Source: Medakamo hakoo (lineage: Eukaryota; Chlorophyta; Trebouxiophyceae; Coccomyxaceae). From it: a stretch of 64,000 nt of DNA. Shown here in pieces: positions 18,310-56,236 of this stretch. The notes beneath the pieces are model-generated. The model made no database searches, was not told where the DNA came from, and saw only the letters and a list, made by a program, of their open reading frames with translations. Within the stretch, counting starts at the first letter, position 1; each line of letters begins with the position of its first letter. The stretch lies in assembly GCA_026636295.1 (NCBI GenBank), contig CP089457.1, positions 248,001 through 312,000 on the forward strand, read 5' to 3'. The position numbers and the translations under genes were made by a program.

Positions 18310-19608
18310 ATGCTCGCCCCGCGGGCCGGGCCCGGCGCCCTCCGCCACGCCGCAACATGCGCGCGGAGCCTGGCCACTCAGGCAGCTTCACGACTGTTCG
18401 AACCCTGGCCAGACGCGGCCGCGCCGTTGGAAGACGCGAGCTCGCCGCCGCCGGCCTGGAACACGCCCGCACCCGCCGCCCACGCCGCCGAACTGGGCGC
18501 CGTCTTCTGGGGGCCGGGCGCCTGGCTCCCAGTCGCCCGGGCGTCGACCGTGTCCCAGCCCGGGGACAGGGCTGCCAGCACAGTCGCCGGCGCGCCGACC
18601 CTCACCGTCCGGGACGGCGGCGGCACGCTGCGGGCGTTCCACAACACGTGTCGCCACCAGGCCGCCCGCCTGGAGGCCGGGTGTTCCACGTCCGACCGCA
18701 TCACCTGCCCCTACCACGGCTGGACGTACGGCTTGGATGGGCGCCTGACCTCCGCGCCCGGCCTGGGCGCGTCTGGTTTCAAGGCCCGGGAGTTTGGGCT
18801 GCGACCACTGGGTGGTGGGCCGGCCGCCTTTGGCCCGTTTGTGTGGGCGCGGGTGGGCGCCGGGCCGGACGAGAGTTTTGAGGGCTGGCTGGGTGGGCGC
18901 TCGGCGCGCGCAGAGCTGGCCGACGCGCTGGGCCTGGTGGATGATGGCGCGCCGCCACCACCTCCACCCGCCGACGTGGCGGGCTTCACGCACGTCGGCG
19001 CCGAAACCTTCCCCGTCCGCGCCAACTGGAAAGTCGCCGTCGCGAATTACCTGGACGGCGGGTACCACGTCCCCGGCGGCCACCCCGCCCTGGCGGCAGG
19101 CCTGGACATGGGCACCTACACCAGCCGGCTCGTCGGGGGCGGGAGGGGAGTCGCGTCGCTGCAGACCGTGCGGGCCGCCGCGGGCGGTGAGCGCGTCGGC
19201 GCCGCCGCCGACGCGCGGCTGGCCAGCGCGCACGGCCGGCCGGCCGCGTACGCTTTCCTGTACCCGGCGACGATGATCAACCGATACGGGCCGTGGCTTG
19301 ACGCGAATGTGGTCGTCCCGACCGGGCCCGACTCCTGCCTCGTCCGGTACGACTGGTGGGTCGAAGACGGCGCGGCCGCCGAAAAGAGGGGGCGGGGCGG
19401 GGCGGCGACCCCGCTCGCCGCCCTGTTTGCCACAGACCTGGCCGCATCCGCCGCCGTCCAGGCTGAGGACACGGCGCTGTGCGAAGCCGTCCAAGCGGGC
19501 AGTGCGTCGCCAGGTGCCGTCCCTGGGCGGTACGCCAAGCGAGAAGGGTTGCTGAAACGGTTTCATGAGCTGGTGCATGGCGACCTGGCCCGGGCGGGGT
19601 TGGTGTAA
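18310..19608 (+). CDS. Choline-monooxygenase-like Rieske non-haem iron oxygenase
   Basis: Single exon, 432 residues, start MLAPRAGPGALRHAATCARS, an Arg/Ala-rich presequence. The Rieske [2Fe-2S] ligands are C114-R-H116 and C133-P-Y-H136 (FHNTCRHQ ... TCPYHGWTYG). The mononuclear iron site is in YLDGGYHVPGGH, with His253 and His258; DGGYHVP closely resembles plant choline monooxygenase, which oxidises choline to betaine aldehyde in plastids using ferredoxin. A third carboxylate ligand should lie near the C-terminus but I do not assign it. Related enzymes use carnitine or other quaternary amines, so the substrate is an inference. Other segments: NWKVAVANYLDGG and FLYPATMINRYGPWLDANVV. Confidence 0.8.
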   Translation: MLAPRAGPGALRHAATCARSLATQAASRLFEPWPDAAAPLEDASSPPPAWNTPAPAAHAAELGAVFWGPGAWLPVARASTVSQPGDRAASTVAGAPTLTVRDGGGTLRAFHNTCRHQAARLEAGCSTSDRITCPYHGWTYGLDGRLTSAPGLGASGFKAREFGLRPLGGGPAAFGPFVWARVGAGPDESFEGWLGGRSARAELADALGLVDDGAPPPPPPADVAGFTHVGAETFPVRANWKVAVANYLDGGYHVPGGHPALAAGLDMGTYTSRLVGGGRGVASLQTVRAAAGGERVGAAADARLASAHGRPAAYAFLYPATMINRYGPWLDANVVVPTGPDSCLVRYDWWVEDGAAAEKRGRGGAATPLAALFATDLAASAAVQAEDTALCEAVQAGSASPGAVPGRYAKREGLLKRFHELVHGDLARAGLV

Positions 19609-32912: not shown

Positions 32913-35900
32913 ATGGCGCCCTCCGACCTGGAGGGCGCGCCCTCGCTGGCCCTGCCGTTTCGAGCGCCGGGCTCGACGGCCAGCGATGGCCGCCGACTGA
33001 CGACGCGCCGCGAGTTTGCTGCGCGGCTCGACGCCGCCACCCTGCACGCGGTGTTCCTGGTACGTCAAGGCCGAGCCTTAAGTCTTGTCTACCGCCTGCC
33101 AAGGGGAAGAGAGGGAGAGGGCGGCGGCGGGGCGCGGGCGCGCTCCCGGAGGGGGGGAGGGCGGCCCATCGTGGGGAGCGAAATTCGCGCGCGGAACGCG
33201 CGCGCTCCGTCGCGCCTCATTGACGCCCACACCCCTTGACCTCCACCCTCAGGCGTACTGCGGACGCGTCGGCCGTGAAGAAGACATCCTTACGCTGTAT
33301 GGTAAAGCGACCGGCGCCGTCGCTGTTCGACTCGCGCTGGACCCTTTGATGACGCTCGCCCGCCTCGTAGAGGCCGTGGGAAACGCGGCGCGCGCTGCGT
33401 TGCCCTTTTCGCCCTCGGCCGACGGACCCACGCTGACGGTGGCCTTTGCCGATGGCGTGGACGAAGCAGAGCAGGTAAAGAGTCCATTTGAGGGGGATGG
33501 AGCGAGGTTTGGACGTGGTTGTCCCGCCCGGCCGGGCACCCGTTGCGGGGCGGGTGAACCTTCCTATTCACGCACAAACTCCCCCCACGTGCCAAACGCG
33601 CGCGCCGTTTGCCTCAAACACGGAATCAACGGCGGGCCGGCCGCCACACGCGCTGCCGCCGCCTCCCACCCTCACCGGCGGGCCAATAACCACCCTGAGT
33701 GACTCACCGACCCAAAAAAAATCAACGCCGCGCCAAACGCAGCTCCCTCCCTCGGTCGACCTGTTCCTCGCGCCGCTGCCGGGCGGCCGGGCCGCCCTCG
33801 TCGCGGCCGCGGCTGCCTACCCGGCCGACGCTGTCGCGGCCATGGCCCACCACCTGGAGACCATGGCGGCGGCGGTGGCGGAGGCTGGCGCGGACGTGCC
33901 CATCGGCGACATCCCGCTGGCCCCGCCGGCCGAGCTGGCCGCGGTGGTCTGCGGCCCGACTGCGCTCACCGACGCGCACGTCGCCCTCCCGCCCACCGCG
34001 ACGCTGCACGGCCTGGTCGCCGCCGCCGCGGCGGCCAACCCGGCCGCGCCCTGCCTGGTGTCAGCTGACGGTGCCGACGTCCGGTCGTACGCCGACGTCG
34101 ACGCGGCGTCCGCGGGCCTGGCCGCGCGCCTGGCCGCGGGCGTGCTGGCGTCTGCGCCGCCGCCGGGCGAGGCCGGCAGCCACCTGGTCGGCGTCGCGCT
34201 CGACCGCGTGTCCGCCGCCGGCCGGGTGGGCGACGCGATCGTCGCCATCCTGGCCGTGCTCCGCGCCGGCGCCGCCTACGTCCCGCTCGACCCGGCCGCC
34301 CCGCCGGAGCGCCTGGCCGCGATCGTGGGCGAGGCCACGCCCGCGGCCGTCTTTGTCGACGACCCGGCGTCCGTCGTGGCCTCCACGCTCCGCGCCGCGG
34401 GCGTCCGCGTCCTGACGGTGGCCGAGGTGGAAGCCTGGCAGGCGCCGACCGAGGCGGACGTGGCCGCCGGCGTGCGGCCGGCCGACTCGTCGTCCGCCGC
34501 GTACGCCCTGTTCACGTCCGGGTCGACGGGCACGCCCAAGGGCGCGGTCTTGGAGCACGGGTCCGTCGCCTCGTACATCGCCCACACCATCGCGGACTAC
34601 CGCATCACGCCGTCCGACGTCTTCCTCATCCGCACGTCTCTGGTCTTTGACGTGAGCGTCAGCGAGATGTTCCTGTCCCTGGCATCGGGCGCTTCGCTCG
34701 TCATTGGCCAGCATGGCGTCGGCGCGTCGGGCGAGGACTTGGCCGCCCTCGTCGCCGCGCGCGGCATCACCGTCTTGCACGCCGTCCCCTCCCAGCTGGA
34801 CCTGTTCAACCGGGCGTTGAAGGGCGAGGGCGTGGCGGCGCCCCTGCCCCGCCCGGCCGCGCTGCGCCTGGTCATTGCGTCGGGCGAGGCCCTGCCCACG
34901 CCCGTCGCGGTGTCCTTCCGCGAGGTCGTCCCCGCCGCCGTCCTGGCCGACTTGTACGGCCCGACCGAAGCGGCCGTCCACGTCACGGGCCAGGACGCGG
35001 GCCTGGTCCCGGCGGGCGGCCGCATGCCCATCGGGCGGCCACTCCCCGGCCTGCGGGCGTACGTGGTGGACGCGCGCCTGCGGCCCGTGCCCGCGGGCGT
35101 GCCCGGCGAGCTCCTGATCTCCGGCCGCCAGCTCGCCCGCGGCTACCTGGGCCGCCCGGAACTGACGGCCGCGGTCTTTGTGCCCAACCCCTTCTACGAC
35201 CCGGCCGTCGACCCGCCGTCGTACTCGCGGGCGTACCGGACGGGCGACCTGGCGCGCTGGGTGCGGCCGCCCACGCCGCCGAGCGGTGTGCCGCCTCCGC
35301 CGTCAGCCTTGCCAGTCATTGAATTCATGGGCCGCCTGGACGACCAGGTCAAGATCAAGGGCGGGCACCGCGTGGAGCTGGGCGAAGTGGACGCGGCCCT
35401 GCTCGCCGCGCCGGGCGTGTCCAACGCCGCGTCCGTCGTGCGCGCCGACCGCACAGGCGCGCTCCACATCATCTCCTTTGTGGAGCCGGCGTCCGTCGAC
35501 CTGGCGGCCGTCGCGTCCGCACTGGAAGCCCGCCTGCCGGCGTACATGCGCCCGACGGCCGTCGTCCCGCTGGACGCCATGCCGCGCCTGCCGTCGGGCA
35601 AAGTCGCGCGCCGCGCTCTGCCGGGCTTTGACGAAGCCGTCGCCGCTGCTTTGGCTGCGGAGGGTGGGTCGCTGCGCACGGCGCCGGCCACCGCGGCGGA
35701 AGAGGCGGCTCAGTCCGCGTACGCGGCCGTCTTGGGCACGGCCGACCCGGCATCCATCCCGCTGGACCTCGCGTTTGCGCGCCTGGGCGGCACGTCGCTG
35801 CAAGCCGCTGCCGTCGCGGCGCGCCTGTCGCGCGAGGTCGGTGTGCACGTCCCGCCGGCTCTGGTCCTCCACGCGTCGACGGCGGCGGCGCTAGCGGCGG

Positions 35901-38900
35901 CCGTGGAAGAGTTGATGGTGGGCGGCGTGGCGGTGCCGGCGCTGGCCGCGACCACCACGCCCGCCACCCGTGCGGCGGGCGTCCCCGCCTCGCTCAACCA
36001 GGCGCAGATGGTCGCCCTGCACGCGCTCGCTCCGGACTCGCCCGCCTACAACGTGGCCAGCGTCGCCTTCTTCGACGACGCTAAAGCCGTGCCGTCCCCA
36101 CGCGCGCTGGAGCAGGCGCTGCTCTGGCTGGCGACGCGGCACGGCAGCCTGAGGACAAAGTTTGCGGTCGGGCCGGGCGGCGAGCCCGTCCAGATCGTGG
36201 CGTCGCCGCAGGCCGTCTTGGACGCCGGGATCTTGCGCACGGCGGAAGTGGCCTCCGGCTCTGGTCGGGCTGGTCTGCTGGCCGCCGCCCGGTCCGACGC
36301 GGCCCGTCCCTTCCAGCTGGTCGGCGGCTTGCCGCTCTTCCGCTTGCTGCTGGCGACCGACCCGGCGAGTGGGTGCGCGGCCTTGGCTCTGACCGCCCAC
36401 CACGCCATCACCGACGGCGCGTCCCAGGGCATCATGTGGTCGGAGCTGGCCGCCACGGTCGCGGCTCTGTCCACCGGCGGCGCGCCGCCCACGCTGCCCA
36501 CGCTCACGCTCGCGTACGCGGATTTCTCGGCGTGGCAGCTGGCTCGCGTCGCGGACGGGTCGCTGGGCCCGCACCTGGACTACTGGCGCCGCACCCTGGC
36601 CGGCGCGCCGCCGCTGCTCGAACTGCCGACGGACAAGCCGCGCCCGGCCGTCGCGAGCGGCGACGGCGGCAACGTGCCCTTTGCCCTGCCCGCCTCGACG
36701 GCCAGCGCGCTGCGCGCCCTGGCGGCCGAGTGCGAGGGCACGCTGTTCATGGCCCTGCTGGCGGCCTTTTCCGTCGCGCTGGGCCGGTACGCCCGGTCGG
36801 AGGACGTGGTCGTCGGCACGCCGGCCGCCGGCCGCGACCACGCGCCGCTGCACGGGCTTGTGGGCTACTTTGTCAACCCCGTGGCGCTGCGCACCGACCT
36901 GTCCGGCTCGCCATCTTTCCGCGACCTGGTCCGCCGCGCGCGCGCGACCGTCTCCGGCGCCCTCATGCACGCTGACGCGCCCTTCCTGTCCGTTGTCGAA
37001 GCGGTGGGCGCCCGCCGCGGCGGCGGGTCGCCGCCCATCTTCAACACCATGCTCGTCCTCCAGGACGCGGCGTTCATGCCGGCCGTGAGTTTCGGCGCCG
37101 GCGCCGGGTCGGCCATCGTGCCACAGAAGATCGACATGGACGCCGCCGCGTTTGACCTGACGCTGGACGTTGCGGAACGTGCCGACGGCTCGCTGTCCGG
37201 CCACGTCGAGTACAGTGCGGACTTGTTCGAGCGGGCGACGGTGGAGCGCTTTGCGACCAACCTCGCGTTGCTCATCGACGGCGCGCTGGCCTCGCCCGAC
37301 ACGCCGGCCGAGGCTTTGCCGCTCGCCCCGGCCGACGAAGTCCGCACCATGCTCGTCGACTTCAACCGCACCGACGCGCCTTTCCCCGCCGACAAGTGCG
37401 CGCACGAGCTGTTTGAAGCGCACGCGGACGCCACGCCGTCGGCGCGCTGCCTGCTGCACGAAGGCGGCGAGGCCACTTACGGGTCCGTGGAAGCGTCGGC
37501 CAACCGGTTGGCCCACCACCTGGTGTCTTTGGGCGTCGGCCCCGACAAGCCCGTCGGCCTGCTGATGGACCGGTCGCCCGAACTGGTGGTCGCCATGCTC
37601 GCCGTCTTGAAAGCCGGCGGCTGCTACGCTCCCCTGGACCCGGAGTACCCGCCTGACCGGCGCGCCATGATCCTGGAAGACGCGGGCGCGGTCGCGTTGG
37701 TGGCGCACGGCGGCATGCAGGGCGACTTGCCCGCAGGTTCGCCGCCGGCGGGGTGCGCGGTCGTCGACCTGGACGACCCGGCCACGGCGTCCGCCATCGC
37801 GGCCGCGCCGTCCACCCGCCTGCCCGCCCGCCGCGCCGCCCCGTCCAACCTGGCGTACATCATCTTCACGTCCGGCTCGACGGGCCGGCCCAAGGGCGTG
37901 GCCATCCAGCACGACTCGTTGGTGAACATGGTGACCGGCGACGTCGAGCACGGGTGGGGCCAGGCCGCCGACCGCCGCGTCACGGTCTTCAAGTGCCCGA
38001 TTTCGTTCGACGTCGCCGTGCTCGAAGTCTGGGGCTGCCTGGGCCACGGGTCGGCCATGGCCATCGCCAAACCGGGCGGCCACCGCGACACGCACTACCT
38101 GGCGGAGCTGTTCGCCCGCCACGGCGTGCAGGCGGCCGACTTTGTGCCGTCGGCGCTGGGCGCCATGGAAGCCGAAGGCCTGCTGGCCACGCACGGCGGC
38201 GCGTTCCGGTGCGTGACGGTCGGCGCGGAGGTCGTCCCGCCCGGCCTGCCGCCCGCGTTTTTCAAGTCCATCCCCGGCTCGGCCATGAAAAACACGTACG
38301 GCCCGACGGAGGCGACGGTGTACTGCACGTCGTTCACGCTGCCGCCGTCCATGACGGCCGACACGTTTGCGTCGCTGCCTATCGGCCGCCCCACCCAAAA
38401 CGTGCGGTGCTACGTCCTGGACGCCGGCCTGCGGCCGGTGCCCATCGGCGTGCCGGGCGAGCTGCACATCTCCGGCGTGCAGGTGGCGCGCGGGTACCTG
38501 GGCCGCCCGGACCTGACGGCCGAGAAATTCGTGCCCAACCCGTTTTACGACCCGGCGGTCGACGCGCCCGGTTTTTCGCGCCTATACAAATCCGGCGACC
38601 TGGTCCGCTGGACGCCCGGCGGCGACCTGCTCTTCGACGGCCGCGTCGACTTCCAAGTCAAGCTCCGCGGCTTCCGCGTGGAATTGGGAGAGTGCGAGGC
38701 GGCCATGATGGCGGCCGGGCTGGGCGTGTCGTCGGCGGTCGCGGTCGTGTCCGTCGACACCGGCGGCCAGCAGCGCCTGGTCGCGTACGTCTCGCCCGCG
38801 TCGGTCGACACCGCCGCGCTCACTGAGTCGTTGCGCGCCCGCCTGCCGGACTACATGGTGCCCGCGCTCATCGTGCCGCTGGCCGCCATGCCGACCCTGC

Positions 38901-41900
38901 CGTCCGGAAAAATCAACCGCCACGCCCTGCCCGCGCCCGACTGGGCGGGCGTCGCGGCCGAAGAGTATGTGCCGCCCGCCACGCCCGCTGAGGCGGCCGT
39001 CGCGGCCGTCCTGGCCGACGTCCTGGGCATGGACAAAGTCTCCGCCACCGTCGACTTTTTCCGCGTGGGCATGACCTCCTTGCAAGCGGGCGCGGTCGCG
39101 GCGCGGGTGGGCGGCGCCCTGGGCGTGCGCGTCCCGCCGCCGCTCGTGCTCAAGCACCCGACGATCCAGGGCCTGGCCGCGGCCGCGGCCAGCCTGACGC
39201 CGGGCGAGGGCGCCATCCCGGCGTCCACCTCGCCCGCGGACCGGGCGGCGGGCGTGCCCGCGTCCCTGAACCAGGCCCAAATGGTCGCCCTGCACGCGCT
39301 CGCGCCCGGGTCGGCGGGCTACAACATGGGCGAGTTCCTGCCGCTGGGCGGTGGCCGCGTGCTGTCGGCTGGCGGCATTCCCGCGCTGGAGGCCGCGCTC
39401 ACGCACCTCATCGCCCGCCACGAATCCTTGCGCACGGGTTTCGTGGAGCGGGCGTCGGACGGCGCTGCGCTGGCGGTCGTCCTGTCGCCGGCCGACGGCG
39501 CGGCGGCGGTTTTGCCGGGGGGCCGCCTGCGCCGGGCGGCGCTGCCGTCCCCGGCCTCGCCCGACGCGGTCGCCGCGGCCGCGCGCGCCGAGGTTGAAGC
39601 GCCCTTTGACGTCACGGGCGGTGGGGCCCTGTTCCGCGCCCTGCTGCTGACGGAGGGCGGCGTCGGTGGCGACGGCGACGCCACGCCGGCCGCCCTCGTC
39701 CTGACCACCCACCACGGCGTGTCCGACGGCTGGTCGTGGGGCGTGATGTGGGCCGACCTGGGGTCGGCGCTGGCCGCGTGCTTGGCCGGCTCCACCCCGC
39801 CCGCCGACCCGCTCCGCGTCCAGTACGCCGACTACGCGGTCTGGCAGCGGGCCCGCCTGGCCGACGGCGGCCTGGCACCGCACCTGGACTACTGGCGCCG
39901 CACGCTGGCGGGCGCGCCGCCCATGCTGGAGCTGCCGACGGACAAGCCGCGCCCGGCCGCGCCGAGCGGCGCGGGCGGGAATGTGCCGTTCGCGCTGCCC
40001 GCCGCCACGGTGTCCGCCCTGCGCGACCTGGCCGCCGAGTCCGGCGGGTCCCTGTTTATGGCCTTGCTCGCCGCGTACGCCCTGGCGCTCGGCCGGTACG
40101 CGCGGGCGGAAGACGTGGTGGTCGGCACGCCCGCTGCCGGGCGCGACCGCCCTGAAGTCGCGGGCCTGGTCGGCTACTTTGTCAACCCCGTGGCGCTGCG
40201 CACCGACCTGTCCGGCTCGCCCTCCTTCCGCGCCTTGCTGCGCCGCGCGCGCGAGACGGTGACGGGCGCGCTCACGCACGCGGACGCGCCCTTCCTGTCC
40301 GTCGTCGAAGCCGCGGGCGTGCCGCGCGGGACGGGCCACTCGCCGCTGTTCCAGACCATGCTCGTCCTCCAGGACGCCGCCTTCAACGCGGCCGTGCCTT
40401 TCGGTGGCGTCGACGTCCACCCGGTCCAGGTCAACTGCGACACCTCCAACTTTGACCTGACGCTGGACGTTGCGGAACGTGCCGACGGCTCGCTGTCCGG
40501 CCACGTCGAGTACAGTGCGGACTTGTTCGAGCGGGCGACGGTGGAGCGCTTTGCGACCAACCTCGCGTTGCTCATCGACGGCGCGCTGGCCTCGCCCGAC
40601 ACGCCGGCCGAGGCTTTGCCGCTCGCCCCGGCCGACGAAGTCCGCACCATGCTCGTCGACTTCAACCGCACCGACGCGCCTTTCCCCGCCGACAAGTGCG
40701 CGCACGAGCTGTTTGAAGCGCACGCGGACGCCACGCCGTCGGCGCGCTGCCTGCTGCACGAAGGCGGCGAGGCCACTTACGGGTCCGTGGAAGCGTCGGC
40801 CAACCGGTTGGCCCACCACCTGGTGTCTTTGGGCGTCGGCCCCGACAAGCCCGTCGGCCTGCTGATGGACCGGTCGCCCGAACTGGTGGTCGCCATGCTC
40901 GCCGTCTTGAAAGCCGGCGGCTGCTACGCTCCCCTGGACCCGGAGTACCCGCCTGACCGGCGCGCCATGATCCTGGAAGACGCGGGCGCGGTCGCGTTGG
41001 TGGCGCACGGCGGCATGCAGGGCGACTTGCCCGCAGGTTCGCCGCCGGCGGGGTGCGCGGTCGTCGACCTGGACGACCCGGCCACGGCGTCCGCCATCGC
41101 GGCCGCGCCGTCCACCCGCCTGCCCGCCCGCCGCGCCGCCCCGTCCAACCTGGCGTACATCATCTTCACGTCCGGCTCGACGGGCCGGCCCAAGGGCGTG
41201 GCCATCCAGCACGACTCGTTGGTGAACATGGTGACCGGCGACGTCGAGCACGGGTGGGGCCAGGCCGCCGACCGCCGCGTCACGGTCTTCAAGTGCCCGA
41301 TTTCGTTCGACGTCGCCGTGCTCGAAGTCTGGGGCTGCCTGGGCCACGGGTCGGCCATGGCCATCGCCAAACCGGGCGGCCACCGCGACACGCACTACCT
41401 GGCGGAGCTGTTCGCCCGCCACGGCGTGCAGGCGGCCGACTTTGTGCCGTCGGCGCTGGGCGCCATGGAAGCCGAAGGCCTGCTGGCCACGCACGGCGGC
41501 GCGTTCCGGTGCGTGACGGTCGGCGCGGAGGTCGTCCCGCCCGGCCTGCCGCCCGCGTTTTTCAAGTCCATCCCCGGCTCGGCCATGAAAAACACGTACG
41601 GCCCGACGGAGGCGACGGTGTACTGCACGTCGTTCACGCTGCCGCCGTCCATGACGGCCGACACGTTTGCGTCGCTGCCTATCGGCCGCCCCACCCAAAA
41701 CGTGCGGTGCTACGTCCTGGACGCCGGCCTGCGGCCGGTGCCCATCGGCGTGCCGGGCGAGCTGCACATCTCCGGCGTGCAGGTGGCGCGCGGGTACCTG
41801 GGCCGCCCGGACCTGACGGCCGAGAAATTCGTGCCCAACCCGTTTTACGACCCGGCGGTCGACGCGCCCGGTTTTTCGCGCCTATACAAATCCGGCGACC

Positions 41901-44900
41901 TGGTCCGCTGGACGCCCGGCGGCGACCTGCTCTTCGACGGCCGCGTCGACTTCCAAGTCAAGCTCCGCGGCTTCCGCGTGGAATTGGGAGAGTGCGAGGC
42001 GGCCATGATGGCGGCCGGGCTGGGCGTGTCGTCGGCGGTCGCGGTCGTGTCCGTCGACACCGGCGGCCAGCAGCGCCTGGTCGCGTACGTCTCGCCCGCG
42101 TCGGTCGACACCGCCGCGCTCACTGAGTCGTTGCGCGCCCGCCTGCCGGACTACATGGTGCCCGCGCTCATCGTGCCGCTGGCCGCCATGCCGACCCTGC
42201 CGTCCGGAAAAATCAACCGCCACGCCCTGCCCGCGCCCGACTGGGCGGGCGTCGCGGCCGAAGAGTACGTCCCGCCGACCGACGCCCTGGAAGCCGCTGT
42301 GCAAGCCGTGTGGCAGGACGTGCTCGGCCTGGATAAAGTGTCCACGACCGCCAACTTTTTCGCGGTCGGCGGCACGTCCCTCCAGGCTGGCCTGGTGTCG
42401 TCCCGCCTGCGCGTGGCGACGGGCATTGCCCTGCCCGCCCTGGCCGTCTTCCAGGCGAAGACCATCGCCGGCATGGCGGCCGCCGCTGCGAAAGTCGCGC
42501 CTGCCACCGCGGCCGCCCTCATCGCGGGCGGTGCGGCTGGTGCGGGCGCGGCGGCGGCTGGTGCGGCTGGTGCGGGCGCGGCGGCGGCTGGTGCGGCGGG
42601 CACGGCGGCCGTCCCGCTGACTGCTACCGCCGCCGCCACGGCCGCGGCAGCGGCGGCCGCGGCCACGGCGGCCGGCCGTGGCTGCTGCGGCCTGCTCCGC
42701 GGCCGCGGCCGCGGCGGCGCGCCCACGCCCGGCCGCGCCCTGCTGCCCCAGTTCCTGGGCTTCACGCTCGCGCTCTTCCTGCCGTACCTTGTCTACTCGG
42801 GCGGCGCGGTCCTGATCGCGAGCCTCAACCTGTGGCTGCCGCGCCACGCCCGCCTGGCCATCACGCTGGCCACGCCGCCAGTGATCCTGGCGTGCGTGCT
42901 GTGCCTGATCGGGGGCGGCATTGCGCTGCGTGCCGCTGTGCTGCCCCGCCTGTCCGACGGCCAGACCGCCCCGCTGTGGGGTGCGACGTACATCCGCTGG
43001 TGGGTGGCCCGCGCCGTCCTCCTCAACGTGGAAGCCTTCCTGCCCTTCTTGCGCGGGTCCGAGCTCCAGGTCATGCTGTACCGTGCGCTGGGCGCGAAAA
43101 TCGGGCGGCGTGTTCGGATCGACACCACCGCGCTCGCCGACTATTCTTTAATCGAAATCGGGGATGACGTGGTCATCGGTGAGGGCGCGTCCATCTCTGC
43201 CGTCGAACTGGAAGCGGCGCCGGCGCCGGGCGAGCCTGGCCGCATGGTCGCCCGCCGCGTCGTCATCGGCTCCGGCTGCACCATCGGCCCGGGCGCGGTC
43301 GTCGCGCCGGGCGCGCGCCTCGCGCCTGGGACGGCGCTCGGCCCGGGCGAGTCGTCCGCCGACCCGCCGCCGGAACACCCGTCGCCGCACGTCCGCACCC
43401 TGCCGCCGCCCGTCCCGGGTAGCATCGCTTTGGCGGCGGGCCTGACGACGGCGTTTTTACAGGCGCTGGTTGTCGTTCCGTCGTTCATCCTGTCCCTGTG
43501 GTTGACTTTCGCCGCGCTGTACGGCAACAACGATGACGTCTACCACAATTTCGGCGCCACGCTGCACTGCCTGTTCCAAGCAAAGCCTCACCCGTCCGAT
43601 GTGACGTGCGTGAAATGGGTGCCGGGCGTGTGGTTGGACATCGCGTCCATCCCGTTCGTCTTCCTGGCTTCGGCGATTCAATTCTTAGTCATCACGATCC
43701 TGACCAAACGCGTGTTCGTCGGCCAGTTCACCGTGGCGAACGCGCCATCCTTCACGCGCGGCTTTGGCGCCTTCAAAATGGCCGTCTGGCGCGGCCTGCT
43801 GCATGCGCCGCTGCTCCACCTGGCAACGGCCCTGCTGGAAGGCACGCCGCTCATGGCTGTTTACCTGCGCGCGCTGGGCGCGGACGTCGGCGCCAACGCC
43901 TGGATCGCGGGCGACGTCAAGTTCGTGGAAGCCGACCTCATTTCCATCGGGGAAGGCGTGTCCGTGGGCTCCTTGGTCACCCTGGTCACGCGGACGTACG
44001 GCGAGCCTGCGCTCGTGCCCGCGAAAGGCCGCGCCCTGGCGGCCAAGTCCACAGCCCGCGGCGGTGGTGCGGGCGCGCCGGTCGCGCCGCCGCCCGCGCC
44101 TACGAGCGTCGACGACATCCTGGCCATCGAGGAAGGGCGGGCGGGCGTGGCGGCCTTGTTGCGGGCGCCGTTGGCGTGCCAGGACTCGGCCGGCCCGCAC
44201 GCGGGCCTGACCCCGCCCAAGCCGCCGACGCAGACCGGCCCCGCCGCCACCGAGCTGTGCGCGCCCATCCGCATCGAAAAGAACACGGACGTGGCCACGC
44301 GCTGCCTGGTCTTCCCCGGCGCGCACGTGGGAGAGGAGTGCATCCTCGGCAACGGCACCGTCGTCCCGCCTGGCTTCGTCCTGTCGCGGTCGTCGGTCAT
44401 GATGGGCGCCTCCGTCCTGCGCGACGGCGCGGACGTGGAGGCCGCCGAGGCTGCCGCCCGTGCCCGCGGCGACGCGGTGGGCGTCTGGCTGGAGGGCGCG
44501 GCCCTGGCGAAGCGGTTCCGCCGCTTCGGCGCGGGCGCCGTCGCGGCCTGCGGCCTGGGTGGCGCGCTGCTCCTGTCGGTCGAGGCCGCGACCCTGTTCG
44601 GCCTGGTCCTGACGGCCGAGCTGCTGCTGGGCATGCCGCTGGCCGTCGCCATCTTCCCCTTTGCGACCGCGCTCTCCCTGGCCGTCACGGTCGCCATCGT
44701 CACGGCCGTCTCCCGGTCCCTGGGCGCGAAGAAGCCCGGAAAATTCCCGTTCTTCGGCGGCGCGCACTTGGCGTGGCACGTCCGCGGCCATTTCGCGGAA
44801 GCGGGCCTGGCGGCCTGGTCGCGCCTGCTGCACGGGTCGGCCCTGGGCGCGGCGGTCCTGCGCGCTCTGGGCGCGTCCGTCGGCGCCGGCGCGCTCATCG

Positions 44901-45190
44901 ACACCGACGCGACGGGCGAGCCGCACCTGGTGTCTGTCGGCGCGGGCTGCATCCTCAACGGCGAGTCGGAGCTGCAAGCCCACTCGATCGAAGCGCGCGA
45001 ACTCAAGCTCGTGTCGACGGGCATTGACCCCGCGTCCACGCTGGGTGGGCACGCGTACGTCATGGCGGGCGCGCGGGTGGAGCCGCACGGCGTCCTCGCG
45101 CCCGGCGCCATCCTGATGAAGGGCGAGTCGTTGCCCGGCGGCGCGGTCTGGCGCGGCGTGCCTGCTGTGCCGGACTACGGCAAAGCGTAA
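32913..45190 (+). CDS. Three-module membrane-anchored NRPS with Pls/PosA-type terminal region
   Basis: Non-ribosomal peptide synthetase. Exons 32913-33059, 33253-33474 and 33743-45190 (GT-AG, phase 0) give 3,938 residues. Order: C-terminal half of a condensation domain (1-~185, no HHxxxDG); A1 (~212-750: LFTSGSTGTPKG, LYGPTEAA, YRTGDLARW, PSGKVARRAL); T1 (LGGTSLQ, Ser808); C2 (HHAITDG, 1009-1015); A2 (~1344-1857); T2 (MTSLQ, Ser1902); C3 (HHGVSDG, 2113-2119); A3 (~2444-2957); T3 (GGTSLQ, Ser3002); Ala/Gly linker; then ~800 residues of three repeats, each with membrane helices and a hexapeptide beta-helix (GDDVVIGEGASISAV; FPGAHVGEECILGNG; AGARVEPHGVLAPG). There is no thioesterase or reductase. 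That ending is the Pls/PosA terminal region; in bacterial Pls it makes poly-lysine. All A domains keep the alpha-amino-group Asp (FDVSV, FDVAV). Confidence 0.92.
37151..38967 (+). repeat. NRPS internal duplication, copy 1 (module 2)
   Basis: 1,817 bp with no difference that I can see from 40451-42267, read line by line. It begins at the codon for Phe in FDLTLDV near the end of the C2 domain, covers the rest of C2 and all of A2, and ends inside EEYVPP just before the T domain. Outside both edges the modules diverge at once, at protein and codon level. Confidence 0.95.
40451..42267 (+). repeat. NRPS internal duplication, copy 2 (module 3)
   Basis: Second copy of the 1,817-bp block, exactly 3,300 bp (1,100 codons) after the first, in the same frame. 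It covers the end of C3 and all of A3. Identity including third positions implies very recent copying or ongoing gene conversion; a collapsed or mis-joined assembly is the technical alternative. Confidence 0.95.
42531..42590 (+). repeat. Two exact 30-bp tandem units in the NRPS linker
   Basis: The 30-bp unit starting GTGCGGCTGGTGCGGGCGCG occurs at 42531-42560 and 42561-42590, followed by a partial third. It encodes a 10-residue Ala/Gly repeat in the flexible linker between the last carrier domain and the membrane region. Its length may vary between strains. Confidence 0.9.
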
Positions 45191-45754
45191 CATTCAACAC
45201 AAAAAAACACAAGAAAACAAAACACGCTGTACATGTATCGGGGAGAGAGAGAGGAGAGGGACGGGTGCATGGTGAAAAAGAGAAACGTGGTGGGTGTGGT
45301 GGTGGTGGTGGGATGGATGGATGGATGGTAGGTGGGTGTGTGGGTGGTGCGCCATCGGCGGGGTGGGAAACTCAAATGACAAATCCTTTTTTGGGAGTGT
45401 GTGGGCTGTGTGTGTGCGTTTGTCCTGAGAGTGTGTGTGTGTGCGCGTGATATTGGGGCGGGCGCGAATCCTGTAATTTTTTTCTCCGCGAAAATGCGAA
45501 AGCCCCTCGACGGCTTTGTTCATGAGGGTGGGATGGCCTGCGCCGGCGCCGCACAGCGAGTTTGGGGGGGCCGACGGCGCATCTTTGCAAGGGCCGCCGC
45601 GGCCGCGGGAAGCGTTGCCTTCCCTGGCCGCACACGCCCAGCTGCTGTCCGCCTTTCAAAAGGTTCTGCTGAAGGCAGCAAGCCGCACGGCGGCGCGGCG
45701 CGGCGCCAGGACGCGGCGCATGCGTGTGCGCTCGTCGCCCACGCCCCGCCCGCC
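45191..45754. other. Region between NRPS stop and J-domain start, with GGAT and GT repeats
   Basis: Low-complexity 3' flank of the NRPS: GA-rich at 45244-45258, GGT repeats at 45295-45310, a (GGAT)n run at 45311-45328 and GT-rich stretches to about 45450. From 45494 to 45754 the frame of the J-domain gene is open and could be a 5' coding extension (see that entry). No other gene seen. Confidence 0.5.
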
Positions 45755-46387
45755 ATGTCGTCGTCATCCTTCTACGACATCTTGGGCGTGCCGTCCACCG
45801 CGTCCGCCGACGAAATCACGGCCGCCTTCCGGTCGCGTGCCTTGGAGCTCCACCCTGACGTCGCAGGCGCCGAATCGGCCGAAGCGTTCAGAGCGGTGTC
45901 GGAAGCGTACCAAGTCTTGAAAGACCCGGCCTCGCGCCGGCGCTATGACGCCCTCCAGGCGGGCGGCGGCGATTTCACCGGCTTCGCGGCTGGTGGGGGA
46001 CGCCCAACCGCGTCTGCAGACCCGTTTGACGAGCATTTCGCAAAGTGGTGGGAGGCCCAGGGCTTCAATGTCAAGCCGGACCCGCGGTCGCGGGAGCAGG
46101 CGCGCGCGGCGGCCGCGGCGGCCGCAGCTGAAGAGTGGGAGCGGGAAAAGGCTGGGGCGCGCGCGGCGCGGGCGGCTTTTGCGGCCCGTCGAGCGCGTAC
46201 GGTGGAAGCCCGCGCCGCCCGGCACGCCAAGGTTTTGCGCGGGTTTTGGCAGGCAAAGCCGGGATGGGGCTGGCCGGACGGGCTCGCGGCGGCTGTTGCG
46301 GTCGCGAGCCTGGCCGGGGTGGCTTTCCTGGCGCGGCCTCCTCCGCAGCAGGCGGGGAGGCGGCGAGAGGGTGATACGAGTGAGTGA
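45755..46387 (+). CDS. J-domain (DnaJ) co-chaperone with C-terminal membrane helix
   Basis: Stimulates Hsp70 ATPase. From ATG 45755: 210 residues. The J domain is residues 5-70: FYDILGVPSTASADEITAAF, then the HPD signature (LELHPDVAG), AYQVLKDPASRRRYDAL. A charged Ala/Arg/Glu helix follows, then one hydrophobic segment near the end (GLAAAVAVASLAGVAFLA) and a basic tail, so it is probably tail-anchored with the J domain in the cytosol or stroma. The frame is open upstream; starts at 45494 (MRKPLDGFVHEGG) or 45533 (MACAGAAQRVWGGRRRIFAR, presequence-like) would add 87 or 74 residues. I chose the start that abuts the J domain, but an organelle-targeted longer form is credible. Confidence 0.75.
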   Translation: MSSSSFYDILGVPSTASADEITAAFRSRALELHPDVAGAESAEAFRAVSEAYQVLKDPASRRRYDALQAGGGDFTGFAAGGGRPTASADPFDEHFAKWWEAQGFNVKPDPRSREQARAAAAAAAAEEWEREKAGARAARAAFAARRARTVEARAARHAKVLRGFWQAKPGWGWPDGLAAAVAVASLAGVAFLARPPPQQAGRRREGDTSE

Positions 46388-46572
46388 CGCGTGTGTAGAA
46401 GGTAGCGGGTCGTGTAGAGTGAGGGAGATTCTCCGTGCTCTTCCGTGGCGTCGGCGCTGGACCGGAAGAGAGAGAGAGAGAGGGAGGGAGAGGCCGGCCA
46501 GGGCGTGCGCGGGGCCCGCGCTCCCAACACACCACACACTAAAATACCGCCCCCCACACACACTGCACGGCC

Positions 46573-49500
46573 ATGGCGGACGATCCCGCGTCGCCGTGCG
46601 TGGGCGCGGGGCCTCCCGGCACCGCCGGCTCCCTGGCCGTATCGCCCGCCCGGCGGCGGCGCCTGTTCATCACGTCCGGCTTGATTCTTGGTGAGCCGGA
46701 AAAATTTGCGCAGGGAGTCGGGCGCGCCCGCCCTTGCACACACGCGCCGCCTTTCCCTGGCACGCGCCCGCAGGCAACGCCCCTGCCACTGCCGCGTGAC
46801 TGCTGCGAGAGATTCAGCCATTGGTCTGGCAGGGGGTTTGGGTGAATCGGACTGCTGGACGCCGTCGCCACAGCGGTCGGAACCGAATGTGCCCCGAAAC
46901 AACGCCGGCCGGCGGCGTAAAAGGTTCGGCGCGCGGGGTGCTCGTCTTGCGACGCGCCTCCGCGCCGCACCCGCTTTTCGATTCGGGCTTGCGCGGTCCC
47001 AGGCCCAGCCTTGTGCATGCGCAGCTTTAACGGCGGCGGAGGAGAGAGGAGGGCGAGCCTGGCCTGGGCGCGCGCGCTGTCGTTTGCTTGACCCTGGGCG
47101 GCCTTCGCCACTTCGCGCTCACGCCCCCCTCACGCCCACGCCCCCCACCACCACACCACAACACCTCCACAGGCAACGAGCTCATGGAACGCCTGGCCTA
47201 CTACTCTTTGTCCACCGACCTGGTCACTCGCCTGGACATGCTGGGCGCGTCGTCCGCTGAAGCCGCGTCCGCGACCATGGTGAGTTTGTCGTGCGGGTGG
47301 GCTCCCCGGCCGCCTGTGTTTTTTTCCTTCCTTCCTCCCGCGACCTGACCTGTGCCCCTTTGTGCCACCACCCTCCCAGGTCTGGCAAGGCGCGTGCTAC
47401 CTCGTCTCCATTTTCGGGGCCTGGACCGCCGACGCCTGGCTCGGCCGGTACTGGACCATCGTGGCCTTCAGCTCCGTCTACCTGCTGGGCTTGGCCGGCG
47501 TCGTGCTCTCGACCGGCGTCGCGGCCCTCTCCTCGCGCGCCTGGCTGATGGGCGCCCTGTACATCGTCGCGCTCGGCACCGGCGGCATCAAGGCCAACGT
47601 GTCGTCCTTCGGCGCCGACCAGTTCGACGACGCGTCCCCCGCCGAAGCCGCGGCCAAGTCCCGGTACTTCAACGCTTTTTACTTTGTCATCAACGTCGGC
47701 GCGCTCATCGCCTCCCTGTTCGTCGTCAACGTGCAAGCGTCCGTGTCCTGGCTGGTGGGGTACGCCATCCCGGCGGCCGCCTTTGCGGTCGCGTTCGCCT
47801 TTTTCCTGGCGGGCACGCCCCTGTACGTCCACGTCGCGCCGCGCGGGTCGCCCTTTGTGCGGTTGGGCGCGGTGTTTGCGGCGGCGGCCGCCAAGTGGAG
47901 GGTCGCGCCGCCCGCCGACCCGGCCCTGCTGTACGAGAGCGACAGCGACGACGAGGACGGGGGCGACGCGTGCGACGCGTGCGCGCTGGAGGCCAAGCCC
48001 GCGGCCGGCGCCCCCGCCCCCGGCCTGCTCCACACCGGCCGGGGGTGGAGCGCGGGCGCGCGGCCGGGCGCTGCGCCGCTCGGCCCGCCCAGCCGCCGCG
48101 TGTCGGCGACCGGCGACGACGACTCGGCCGACGGCGGCGGCCTGGCCTGGCCACGCGACGCCGCCGACGCTGCGGCGCTGGGCGTCCACCACGACCCGCC
48201 GCTGCGCCTGCCGTCCAGTGTCGTGCGTGCGGCTGTCCGCTCGGACAGGCGGGCAGCCACCCGCACCTCCACCAGCGCCGCCAGCGAAGCCGGGTGGGCG
48301 GGCGTGCCGCGCCCGCTGTCAGCCGGCGTGGTCTCCCGCGCCGCGTCCTCGGTGGCGGGCAGCCTGTCCCGGGCCGGCTCCGTGGCGGAGGGGCCCGCGC
48401 CCGCGACGCCCGGGTCCGGTGCCATTGCGTCGGCGTCGGCCGCCGCGGCCGCCGCCACCGCGGCCGCGTCTGGCGTCCGCCGCCGCGCCCGCGCCGAAGC
48501 AGCTGCCGCGGCTGCCGCCGTCAAAGCAGACAACCAGCTGCCGACGGCCTTCGTGCCGCCCACCTCCCGCCGCCTGGCCCACACGACGTACGCGCGCTGG
48601 TTGGACAAAGCGGCCACGCCGCTGTCTTTCTACTACAAGAGCGCGGCGGCCGCGGGCGACCAGCACCCGCCCCCGCCGGGCGGCGGGCCCCTGTGCTGTT
48701 GTGCTGCCTTGGGCCCGGATGACGCGGTGTACGAAGCGCCCGGCGCCGCCGCCGTCGCGGGCAAGACGGTCGCGGACCTGGCGGGCGGCGGCAGCGCCGC
48801 GCGGCCCGCCCGCCTGCCGGGCGTGCCGCGGCCGCACGCCCCCCGGGAACGCCACCTGTGCTCCGTCACCCAGACGGAAGAGACAAAGCGCATGCTGTCC
48901 TTCCTGCCCATCTGCCTGTCCACCGTCGTCTTCTCGGCCGTCTACGCCCAGATGAGCTCGACCTTTGTCCTGCAGGGCAGGTTCATGGACCGCCACGTCG
49001 GCGGCCTGACCATCTCCTCGGCCACCCTGTCCGCCTTCAACACCATTGCCGTGTTGATCTGCGTCCCGCTGTACGACATGGTGGTCGTGCCCGCCGTGCG
49101 CCGCCTGCGGCACGGCCGTGCGCCGACCTACCTGCAACGGATCGGGGCGGGCCTCGCGCTGTCGGTCGTCACCATGGCCGTCGCGGCGGGCGTGGAAGCC
49201 TGGCGCCTGGGCATCGCGGCCCGCGGCGGCAAGCCGCCGTCCGTCTTTGCTTTGGTCCCCCAGTACGCGCTCGTCGGCGCGTCCGAAGGTGGGCGGCCAG
49301 GGACATGGGGCTGGGAGGAGGCGGGCGCGCCGCGCGCGCGCGCGTGCGCGCGCGCTCCAACCACCGTCCTTCCCCCCTCCCATGGGTTTCTCTCATGTGT
49401 CCGCCGGTCCCCCCTCCCCTCCCCAACCCATCCCCTCCCCAACCCATCCCCTCCCCCCCCCACCCCACCCCACCCCACCCCACCCCACCCCCCCACCCCA

Positions 49501-49991
49501 CCCCCACCCACCCACACCCACACCCACCCACACACCCACCCACACACACACACTCTCACACAGTCTGTGCATTCATCGGCCTGATGGAGCTGTGCTACTC
49601 CGAATCGCCGGATTCCATGCGCTCGCTCGCGTCCGCCCTCCAGCTGGTCACGGGCGCGGTCGGGTCCTTCCTCTCCTCCGCCATCGTGTCGGCCGTGGAG
49701 TCGACCGCCCGGGCGTACACCGGCCGGGGCTGGCTGCCCGACCTGGACGAAGGCTACGACGGCCGCCTCGACCTGTTCTACACCCTGCTCCTCGTCATTT
49801 CGGCCGCCAACCTGGTCTTCTACCTGTGGACCGCGTCCCAGTACCGTTACAAGGTCCTGGCCGACCCCAGCGTCCGGGCGGGGCGGGCGGGGCTGGCCGC
49901 CCTGGCGGCCGCGGAGCAGGGGCGGCCGCGCACGGCGGACGCGGAGGCCGGTGGCTGGCGGCGGCGGGCGTCGTCGGCCGGCACGGCCTGA
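46573..49991 (+). CDS. POT/PTR (NPF) family proton-coupled peptide transporter
   Basis: Major-facilitator importer of di/tripeptides, or nitrate or other small solutes in plants. Exons 46573-46690, 47173-47279, 47380-49288 and 49564-49991 (GT-AG, phases 1, 0, 1), 853 residues. Family landmarks: GNELMERLAYYSLSTDL (the E-x-x-E-R proton-coupling region appears here as NELMER), GRYWTIVAFSSVYLLGLAG, ALGTGGIKANVSSFGADQF (PTR2 signature region), FNAFYFVINVGAL, and in the C-terminal half AVYAQMSSTFVLQG, FNTIAVLICVPLYD and GLMELCYSESPDSMRSLASA. A disordered loop of about 300 residues separates the two six-helix halves. It lies 1.4 kb downstream of the NRPS on the same strand. TGTAA occurs about 80 bp after the stop (50070-50074). 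Confidence 0.9.
49289..49563 (+). repeat. C/A-rich simple-repeat intron of the POT gene
   Basis: The last POT intron. It starts GTGGGC, has alternating GC (GCGCGCGCGTGCGCGCGC) near 49330-49352, then CCCCTCCCCAACC units, CCACC repeats and CA repeats up to the acceptor CAG at 49561-49563. A long one-sided purine/pyrimidine tract like this can be unstable. Confidence 0.7.
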
Positions 49992-52045: not shown

Positions 52046-55000
52046 CTACACCACCCCAACCCCACCGCTCAGGCTAGACCGCCCCACGACCGACGACTCT
52101 GACCTCTCCCCACTCACACTCCCACCCACACAACCAACCATCGCGGCCTGCACAGCCGCGGCCAGAGCCCGCGCGTCCGCCTCCGTCTCACAGTCCAGCA
52201 CCACCGACCGGAAGGGCTTGAACAGCCCACCTAAACCACCACCAGCAGGCATAGCAGGCCGCCCTGTCCCGGCCGTCTGCGGTCGAGCGGGCGTGCCCGC
52301 CGCCGCCGCCGCCGACACGCCCACGGGCGAGGGAGCAAAGGCCAGGACCTCCACCCGCCTCAGCCGCGCGTCGCGTGGACCAGCAGCGACCACGCGCACG
52401 CCGGCCACGTCGCCAGTCGACGCGGCCCAGTCGGGCGCGCGCGTGCGGGCACCCCCACCGGCCCCGGCTGTGGACACGGGCCGCGGCGTGTGGCGGTGGT
52501 GGTGCGCAGCCGCCGCGGCGGCGGCTGCACCAGCCGCCGCCGCAGCCAGCGCCCGCATCCCGTGCGGCGGCGGCGGCGGGCGGACGGGCGCGACCAGGAT
52601 GCGGGCGTCCGTGATGAGGACGAGGCGGCCAGGTAAGACGGACGGAGTCTGGGCGGCCGGCCGCGGCCGCGGCGGTGGCGAGGTGGTGGTCGCCCCTCCT
52701 CCAGGCGCCGACGCACGGACCGGCGGCGAGCCGCCCTCGCCCTCCCCGCCGCCACCGGCCAGTGCGACCGCCACGCGGCGGCACTCCAGGTACGTCTCTC
52801 CGCGCGCCGTGCGCGAGGTGGCGGCTCCACCGCCAGACAGTGGCAGTTCGCGCAACAAAGCCATGCCCGCCGCTTCGTGCCAGTCATACGCCGGCAGGGG
52901 CCGCCCGCGCCCATCCACCCGGCGCGGTGGCCGCACGCGCGCAAAGCGCGGCGGCTCTCCCACCGCGGCCGCGCGCAGGGCGGCGGCGGCGGCAGCGGAG
53001 ACGTCCAGGGCAGCGGCGGCTGGAGCGGCCAGGGCGGCGGCCGCGCCGCGGGCGGCGCCGCGGAAGCCGCCGCCCTGGCCGCCGCTGCCGCCGCCGCCCG
53101 GCCGCAGCCCGGCCAGCGCGCCCTCCAAACCAAACACGTCCAACGCCGCCCGGGCCGTGGCCGTGCCTTTGGCCGCCGCATTGGACAGGCCAAAGACGGC
53201 GTGGGCGGCGGAGGCGCGCACACCCGCGGCGGCCGCACGCGCGGCCCGCGCCGCTGCCGCAAAGGGCGAGCCGCCCGGCGCCGCTTCCGCCGCGGCCGCG
53301 GCGAGCCCCGCGGCCGGCGCGGCCGCCAACGCCCACAGGCCCATGCCCAGGTGCGCGAGCAGCTGGGCCGGGTCGCCCAGCACGGACGCCGACCCGACCA
53401 GCTTCACAATGACGGGGACGGCGGCCCGGGTGTAGTGCGCGGCCACGGCCTGGCGCAGCTGGGCCGGGCCCAGCAGCGGGTGGCGCAGCGTCAGCCCCCC
53501 CAGCGTGACGTGCGCGCCCTCGACTTCGCCGACCAGGGCCAGGACGGTCTGCACGCCGCTGCTGCCCGCGGCGCCCGGCGGCGGCGCGCCGGACCGGGCC
53601 GCACGCCGGCGGCGCACCTCGCCCGCCACGACCGCCGCTTTCGCCTGCGGGGCGGCCGGGTGGAGCGAGAGAATCGCGCGGACGGGGCCGACCCGGATCA
53701 GGTCGGCGTAGACTTTCAGGGCGGAGGGGGGCTGCGCACCCGCCGGCGCGCCCGGCTGGACCTCTTCGCCGTCGCCGGCGGCTGCACCGTGGTCGGACGG
53801 CGGCACGCTGGGCCCGCGCTGTGGGGACGTGCGGGCGCGCTGCTGCTGCAACGGTTGCAGCGGTGGCACTGACTCGCCCCGCCCGCTCGGCGCGACGCTG
53901 CCTTCCAGGCGGGCGCCGCCCGGCGGGAGGGGCGGGCCGCCACCCGACCCGAACCCGCCTGTGAGGCGGGCGAAACCGGCCGACGCCGCCGCCCCAGCCC
54001 CGGCCACCGCGCCCGCCAGCGCCGTCGCAAAGGCCTGTTCCACGTTGAGGGCGAGCGGCGCGAAATCCGCTTCGGCCGTCTCGATGCACAGCACGCCGTC
54101 CGGCCGCCGCGTCCAGGCGGCCAAGCGGGCGCGGAAGGCGGTGGGAGGGGGGGCGGACGACGTGGTCGAGCCGTGGTGAGGAGGTGGCGCCGCTGTCAGG
54201 GCGCGCGCGGGCGGCGCCGCGTCTCCACCGCCACCGCCGTCGCCGACCGACCCGCCGGCGGGCGAGTAATGCACGCCCAGCAGGCCGCCCAGCTCCACGG
54301 GCGCGACCAGCACCACAGGGTGCGCACTCCACGGCCGGGCATCATCGACCTGCGCCCGTCCCACCGCAGCTTCCACCCAGGCGCGGGCGCCGTCGTGGGC
54401 GGCACGCGCGCGCAGGCCCGCCACGCGAGCGTACACCAGCTCGGCCAGGGCGCCGGTCGCCGTCGCAGCCATCGGCGCGCGCCGCCCACTGCCGCCTGGC
54501 CCGACCAAGGACACGCCGACACCCGCCAGGTGCAGGGCGACGTCCAGCACAGGCGGCGGCGCGCGCGGGTTGTGCGCGGACGACGGCGCGGGCGTGAGGG
54601 CGGAGGTGGAGGAGGACGACAGCGCGGCCGCGGGCGGCGGCGCAGACGGCGGCGCCGCCGCGCCCGCGTCGCTCGACCCGCCTCCTCCGCCCAGCCACCA
54701 CGTCCCCGGCCCGCGCGCGGACCAGGGCCGCCAGTCGACGGGAGGCGACGCCGCCGACGCCGCCCCCATGCCGCCAGCCACCAGCCCCCGCCACCCACCC
54801 GCCAGGCCCAGGCCGGCCGAGGGAGGCGGGTGGACGTCCAGGTCGACGACGGTGAGCACGCGCGTCGGGCCTTCCGCGGACACCGTCGCCCGCAGGCGGC
54901 GTGGCCGGCGGGCGCCGCGGTCCGGGGAGGGGGTGGCAGACGCTCCGGGCGCACGAGACGCGGCCGCCACAGCGCCCGCCGCCGCGGCTGCGGCCGCGTC

Positions 55001-56205
55001 GCCGAGCGAGGCGGTGAACGAGCCGCCGACGCGGTCGAGGGCAAACGTGCCGAGCCGCCGCCCGTCGGCCAGCGCCACGACCAGCCGCCGGCTCCCCGTC
55101 GGTTCATCCCACGCGTACGGCGTCGACGACCAGGGTCGCAGCACGTCCCGGCGGGCGGCGACGTCGGCGGACGAGGCGGGCGGGAGGCGGCCGCCGCCCG
55201 GGGCGCCGGAGCTGGCGCCGCTGCCGTGGCCCACGCCCACGCCCGCTTGGGCCACGACCAACTCCTCGCCCGTGCAGTTGTCCAGGCGGTACGGCGCGAA
55301 GCGGCCGGACTGGTCTGACAGCGTGGCGACCAGGCAGCCGCCTCCCACCGCGACGACGTCGACGCGGAGCAGGCGGGCGCCCGCGGCGGCGGCGGCGGCG
55401 GCGCTGGAGCCGCCCGCCGCGCCCGCGAGCGCGGCCGCCACGCGGTCGCTGTGCCTCAACCGCACCAGCTGGTCGCCCGGCGTCGCCGGGTCGAAGGCGC
55501 CCGACCACAGCCAGCCGGGCTCGTGCGGGCGGACGGTGAGGGCCAGGGGCCGGCCCGTGTCCCGCCAGTGCACGACGCGGGAGGCGCCGGGAGCGAGGGG
55601 GCGGCCGCCGTCGGCCGGGTGGGGCGAGCCGCCGCCGTCCAGGCCGGCCTGCGCGAATTGCAGGGCCGGCCCGCCCGGCGGCAGCGCCGACCGCAGGACG
55701 AAGCGCGGGCCGACGCGGAGCTCCAGTCCACCGGGCGTCGGGTGCGCGGCCAGGGCGACCACGTACCCGGCCCGCGCTTGGTCTGGGCCCGCGGGCGCGG
55801 GCGAGGCTTGCGCGGCCGCGGGTCCGCCGCAGCCGCCCGCGTGGTGGGAGAGCGCGCCCGCGGCGCCCCACCCCATGCCGCGGGCCAGCGCGCACGGCAC
55901 GACGACGGCGGCCGCGCCGCCCACCGCCGCATCCAGCGGCACGGCTTCGGACCAGTAGGTGCGGCCAGGTGGGGCGCGGGCTGGGGACGCGCGCAAGCGG
56001 ACGCGGAGGCGGGGCAGGGACGCCGGGCGCGGGGGCGGGCGCCCGTCGTCGGCGCTGGCCGCCGCAGCCGCGGCGGCCGCCGCAGCGGCCGCAACGGCAT
56101 CCGCCACAGCCGGCGGCGTGTCCAGCAGCGTGGGGTACTTGCGCACCGCGTCAGGAGCAGTGGGCGGCGGCGGTGGCGGGACGGGCGTCGCGCTCCCGCT
56201 GGCGT

Positions 56206-56236
<31 letters not shown>

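Follow-up and report, generated by a model that had tools for sequence, protein, structure and literature searches.

The NRPS gene at 32913-45190(+) of the window (the whole 64,000-nucleotide stretch of DNA that was analysed) encodes a protein of ∼3,938 amino acids in which three adenylation-carrier (A-T) units and two condensation (C) domains are followed by a terminal domain (TD) that, judged by its sequence, is truly homologous, though only distantly similar, to the TDs of Pls and PosA, the single-unit bacterial enzymes that make poly-lysine and poly-ornithine. The occurrence of Pls-type TDs in eukaryotes is already known, but the open-licence literature searched did not yield any multi-module NRPS with such a domain at its end. 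The best explanation for this architecture, to which we assign a probability of somewhat under one half (∼0.45), is that a colinear three-module NRPS, the product of a nuclear gene in a green-lineage alga, would build a tripeptide thioester and pass it to the membrane TD for release or condensation.

Gene model and module architecture

The NRPS domains lie in a stop-free frame of 3,900 codons at 33488-45190(+), which is preceded by two short predicted exons. Residue numbers given for P0001 are converted to those of the full protein by adding 38. Exon 1 (32913-33059(+); 147 nt, 49 codons) is predicted to begin with the ATG at 32913 (MAPSDLEG...) and to end at a GTACGT donor at 33060, and exon 2 (33253-33474(+)) comprises 222 nt or 74 codons. 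The two predicted introns, at 33060-33252(+) (GTACGT...CAG) and 33475-33742(+) (GTAAAG...CAG), are of the GT-AG type, and both are in phase 0 and keep the frame. By eye, the N-terminal ∼200 residues (exons 1-3) resembled a degenerate C-lobe of a C domain; this assignment was rejected, with a profile score of 4.0 bits compared with 4.5 bits for the best shuffled sequence.

The domain order of the protein is A1-T1-C1-A2-T2-C2-A3-T3, followed by an Ala/Gly-rich linker and a TD of ∼825 residues. Pfam identified three AMP-binding, three PP-binding and two Condensation domains together with hexapeptide repeats at the C-terminal end, and no thioesterase (TE), reductase or epimerase domain was found by Pfam in the NRPS frame. 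The first unit consists of A1 (34007-35620(+)) and T1 (35684-35887(+); GGTSLQ). It is followed by a second module composed of C1 (35987-37357(+)), A2 (37412-38929(+)) and T2 (38996-39184(+); GMTSLQ), and by a third composed of C2 (39263-40651(+)), A3 (40712-42229(+)) and T3 (42290-42487(+); GGTSLQ at 42368). The A domains were located by Pfam (A1 also by NCBIfam) and by their pocket residues, with DNA comparison in addition for A3, and the C and T domains by Pfam and motif position. Both C domains contain the HHxxxDG motif, as HHAITDG at P0001 residue 971 (nucleotide 36398) in C1 and as HHGVSDG at residue 2075 (nucleotide 39710) in C2. The carrier Ser motif is present in T1, T2 and T3, and the core motifs and A10 Lys of all three A domains, as read from the translation, are intact. 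The C-A-T modules, HHxxxDG motifs, A cores and carrier Ser residues are those of a canonical multi-module NRPS, except that the TD stands in place of a C-terminal TE or reductase. The first-pass annotation had described three A-T units and two complete C domains without a TE or reductase, and this was borne out by both Pfam and the motifs.

Modules 2 and 3 share a tract of 1,817 bp that DNA comparison showed to be identical base for base. One copy, at 37151-38967(+), covers the end of C1, A2 and the sequence up to T2, and the other lies at 40451-42267(+). The edges of the tract are sharp, and outside it the parts of C1 and C2 and of T2 and T3 are ∼45-85% identical per 100 bp. The tract could have arisen by recent gene conversion or duplication, or it could be an effect of assembly or polishing; whichever it was, modules 2 and 3 are both real, because they differ in the C and T portions beside the tract. 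Since A2 and A3 are identical, the same residue would be incorporated twice. An identity so exact and so sharply bounded might also reflect an artefact of the assembly or the gene model, such as a mis-joined or over-corrected repeat, a different number of modules or a TD belonging to another gene. We consider this very unlikely. Recent gene conversion accounts for the tract equally well, the differing sequences on either side of it mark two distinct modules, and no stop interrupts the frame from A1 onwards. Moreover, no Met codon occurs across residues 2996-3196, which extend from T3 to TD repeat 1, so the TD has no possible separate ATG start upstream of its first helices, and the codon usage of the TD agrees with that of the remaining NRPS (r=0.98). 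An antisense ATG frame of 502 amino acids at 43685-45193(-) lies opposite the TD and is probably a by-product of a G+C content of 70% or more.

Homology and conserved residues of the terminal domain

The Ala/Gly-rich linker seen in the translation (42488-42712(+)) joins T3 to the TD (42713-45187(+)). As had been anticipated in the first-pass annotation, this C-terminal region matches TIGR02353 ('NRPS terminal domain'), with an E value of 7.6e-58 and 196 bits over three stretches. Although homologous, the TD scores below the curated cut-off of 423 bits, and the accompanying statement that such an ending defines homopolymer synthetases was too strong for this protein. When each third of the TD was searched alone, TIGR02353 was again the top family (1.3e-21, 1.2e-13 and 1.2e-26). 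Non-TD matches to the same model in four genomes score about 18-32 bits, so the TD match is not a generic hexapeptide match. Hydropathy analysis reveals three pairs of hydrophobic helices within the last 825 residues, alternating with left-handed β-helix (hexapeptide) repeats (Hexapep 4.8e-12, three stretches). The three TM-helix pairs and three β-helix repeats of CHPA (cationic homo-poly-amino-acid) synthetases, the Pls/PosA family, are thereby accounted for by hydropathy, Hexapep and the per-third TIGR02353 matches, and the paired-helix layout is as published for PosA and PDAP synthetase (PMC10522769; PMC4668381). An AlphaFold model of the TD from a two-row alignment had a pLDDT of 30 and was discarded, so the fold was assigned from sequence and hydropathy.

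The three repeats of the TD differ in how well they are preserved. Repeat 1 (42761-43357(+)), with its TM pair at 42761-42946 and a β-helix extending to ∼43357, aligns with positions 45-196 of the TIGR02353 profile and keeps the P.WG....R.W block. Repeat 3 (44525-45172(+)) aligns with positions 475-695. It keeps Q3830, H3832 (codon at 44981), E3835, K3840, K3878 and E3880 (P0001 numbering), which form the CHPA invariants Q.H..E....K and K.E, as well as the MK.E...G.P block, and it has lost a Tyr (A3860). Repeat 2 (43421-44437(+)) is degenerate and contains a long extra stretch, at which no convincing splice pair for an in-frame intron was found. The middle third aligns with profile positions 37-148, which correspond to repeat 1, and the CHPA signature of repeat 2 is absent, the bacterial Asp being replaced by S3495 and the Gly-Asn pair by A3603-T3604. 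Repeat-specific models were made in this analysis and eight bacterial TDs were held out from them. Repeat 2 of the held-out TDs was assigned correctly in all eight cases, with 90-197 bits for the repeat-2 model and 43-86 bits for the repeat-1 model; the corresponding scores of the algal repeat 2 are 20-28 and 52-66 bits. Either the algal repeat 2 has thus degenerated into a generic repeat, or a copy of repeat-1 type has taken its place.

Over the entire TD, 58 columns show at least 85% conservation among 32 bacterial TDs; the algal protein retains 37 of them and differs at 21. In a tree with bacterial TDs, the end branch of the algal TD has a length of 4.16 compared with a median of 0.22, and its identity to any bacterial TD of the tree set is at most 25%. 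The branch is too long for the TD to be placed in a particular bacterial clade, and no relative was found among the viral contigs scanned. Given this very long branch and the score below the cut-off, the chemistry of the TD may have been changed or lost. The main rival to release of the peptide by aminolysis is that the TD serves solely as a non-catalytic membrane anchor of Pls origin, with the peptide released through hydrolysis, cyclisation or the action of a separate thioesterase. Such a role would be in keeping with the long branch and the low TIGR02353 score, with a middle repeat that scores as repeat-1 type, and with the 21 altered columns, which include the Asp, Gly-Asn and Tyr positions. 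However, repeat 3 keeps the Q/H/E/K residues and MK.E...G.P, and six polar invariants would not be expected in a mere anchor. We regard anchoring alone as rather unlikely.

Adenylation pockets and proposed product release

The pocket residues, read by motif, are D-V-S-A-I-S-L-V-H-K in A1 and D-V-L-F-T-G-T-V-Y-K in both A2 and A3, with the A10 Lys as the last residue. All CHPA synthetases are reported to share an Asp at pocket position 1 and a Glu at position 3 (PMC10522769), and the same script read a D-x-E pocket in four of four bacterial A-T-TD proteins (D-F-E in two, D-M-E and D-L-E). None of the algal A domains has this pair, position 3 being occupied by S, L and L in A1, A2 and A3. An acidic pocket residue is possible at places other than position 3 (PMC10522769); the algal pockets have none beyond the usual Asp, and the substrates are likely to have neutral side chains, although the reading uses bacterial rules and is weak for an alga. 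The A1 pocket was cross-checked on an alignment to LgrA, which is the best solved-structure match of this domain. Naming of substrates from the pockets was rejected, and LgrA, as the closest solved A domain, was not counted as substrate evidence.

The sequence suggests that a short, non-cationic peptide, rather than a poly-amino-acid, is the probable product of the enzyme, which would act at a membrane. We propose that the modules A1-T1, C1-A2-T2 and C2-A3-T3 would be used colinearly and that the two canonical C domains would form two peptide bonds to give an aa1-aa2-aa2 thioester. The chain on T3 would be handed to the membrane-embedded TD, which would act in place of a thioesterase. Relatives of the TD join an aminoacyl group held on a carrier to an amine, forming an amide. 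In the algal enzyme, the thioester would be attacked, and the peptide released, by a free amine at the membrane face, whether an amino acid or some other small amine, and the His/Glu/Lys set of repeat 3 is the candidate active site. The intact repeat 3 together with the degraded repeat 2 makes a single aminolysis release likelier than iterative polymerisation.

A true polymerase would use the TD iteratively in the manner of Pls, either extending the tripeptide with free amino acids or joining tripeptides to one another, and the TD is indeed homologous to the polymerising domains of Pls, PosA and PDAP synthetase. This seems distinctly unlikely, since the protein has no CHPA-type A domain and its peptide bonds would already be made by the two canonical C domains. 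In addition, all three tandem domains of Pls are reported to be essential for bond formation (PMC4668381), yet repeat 2 of the algal TD is degenerate. The first-pass annotation had proposed either a short peptide or an amino-acid polymer made at a membrane; the short peptide is still the best inference, and the polymer is disfavoured by the lack of the pocket Glu and the loss of repeat 2.

Release by aminolysis could amount to a new mode of NRPS termination, in which a TD with a remodelled middle repeat ends a multi-module line either by coupling the peptide with a free amine or by delivering it across the membrane. We put this forward as a tentative and still doubtful proposal. If it is correct, a Pls-type TD would be able to follow on from ordinary condensation steps, and the Pls TD would count as a membrane condensation domain of general use rather than solely a homopolymerase. 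With one repeat that has lost its signature and another that has kept it, the algal protein would also provide a comparison case for how Pls enzymes join or release their products.

Related enzymes and genomic context

The bacterial sample consisted of 294 plus 398 genomes of Planctomycetota and Pseudomonadota, in which TD matches were collected at E≤1e-60; Actinomycetota, Cyanobacteriota and Myxococcota were covered by plasmid records only. None of the 38 matches from these ∼690 genomes is in a frame longer than 1,695 amino acids, which is single-module size, and four plasmid TD genes encode about 1,340-1,380 amino acids. An additional C-A-T module would lengthen the frame by about 1,000 amino acids. 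The three-module form had been called unusual from the outset, and with respect to these two phyla and the four plasmid genes it is so. The algal enzyme resembles Pls, PosA and PDAP synthetase (TIGR02353) in having a three-repeat helix-pair/β-helix ending behind a carrier domain, no thioesterase, and the Q.H..E....K and MK.E blocks of repeat 3. Unlike these enzymes, which have a single A-T unit without a canonical C domain, it has three A, three T and two canonical C domains, lacks the position-3 Glu and the repeat-2 signature, and reaches 196 bits against the required 423. The Pls family is described as single-module (PMC4668381). Among the best TD matches (phmmer, 137 bits) is an A-T-TD protein from an Isosphaeraceae member of the Planctomycetota (L001:7841-11854), whose identity to the algal TD is 43% in repeat 1 and 30% in repeat 3. 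It differs from the algal enzyme in being a single module with a D-F-E pocket, an intact repeat 2 and a TIGR02353 score of 584 bits. A separate clade of planctomycete Pls-type TDs (L014, L015, L018, L019, L021 and L022), in proteins of single-module size, scores 330-390 bits, which is also below the TIGR02353 cut-off.

Pls-type homologues have been described in fungi, Amoebozoa, Metazoa and Alveolata, and these eukaryotic CHPA homologues share the Pls-type TD, with the fungal clusters having fewer than 1,500 residues (PMC10522769). The network in that study was limited to proteins of 1,100-1,800 residues, so multi-module forms could not have shown up in it (PMC10522769). In Trebouxia, a green lichen alga, antiSMASH assigned a NAPAA, epsilon-poly-lysine-like cluster, the architecture of which is not given in the text (PMC11523091). 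NRPSs are rare in algae and almost all of their products are unknown (PMC4661987). The NRPS of Cyanophora has two C domains like the present enzyme and 'likely makes a tripeptide', and those of Bigelowiella and Aureococcus are multi-module with three C domains (PMC4661987, PMC7073580). Unlike the enzyme described here, none of these three is mentioned as having a Pls-type terminal domain. Cyanophora genes contain an average of 9.2 short introns (PMC6704402), unlike the NRPS gene in the window, and on this intron density Cyanophora was rejected as the host and a glaucophyte of its kind is disfavoured.

The genes surrounding the NRPS gene indicate that the host is, on sequence evidence, a green-lineage photosynthetic eukaryote. 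The neighbour that points to a photosynthetic host of the green lineage is an FtsHi-type AAA protein encoded at 11916-14558(+); its best match is Ctap1 (457 bits), which we take to be a Chlamydomonas chloroplast protein, followed by a chloroplast FTSHI 1 chain (350 bits). The eL19 neighbour matches a top group of chains at 218-224 bits, presumably mostly from plant ribosomes, and all other chains at 180 bits or less. The other flanking genes encode DUF726, CoA-transferase, Na/H exchanger, DnaJ, diacylglycerol kinase, POT/NPF and ubiquitin-hydrolase-like proteins. The codon usage of the NRPS gene correlates with that of its FtsHi, USP, PTR2, CoA-transferase and Na/H-exchanger neighbours with r=0.95-0.98, and with that of the short eL19 gene with r=0.89. 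The green-lineage FtsHi/Ctap1 and eL19 flanks and the common codon usage uphold the earlier placement of this NRPS in the DNA of a photosynthetic eukaryote. Bacterial contamination of a eukaryotic assembly would be in line with the bacterial homologues of the TD and the NRPS modules, but it is unlikely, to the point of being extremely improbable, given that eL19, ubiquitin-hydrolase-like, FtsHi, DnaJ and NPF/POT genes of like codon usage lie on both sides and GT-AG introns are predicted at the 5' end. Nor is there a close bacterial match, the C-A-T module being ∼37-44% identical to the best plasmid places listed and the TD at most 25% identical to the bacterial TDs of the tree set.

Directly downstream of the NRPS gene is a DnaJ-domain gene (45755-46388(+)), and the second gene downstream encodes a POT/NPF transporter (46574-49991(+)) with introns and an inserted low-complexity stretch. 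The transporter was considered as a peptide-transport partner of the NRPS and rejected, as it is closest to plant NRT1.1 and the DnaJ gene intervenes. A gene for a protein resembling the alpha subunit of Rieske ring-hydroxylating oxygenases, with no introns visible, is located at 18397-19605(+). At the other end of the window, an open frame of 3,974 codons (52046-63970(-)) contains a 1,930-amino-acid part without a Pfam match at 0.001 and looks as if it encodes a very large eukaryotic protein, resembling VPS13 by eye.
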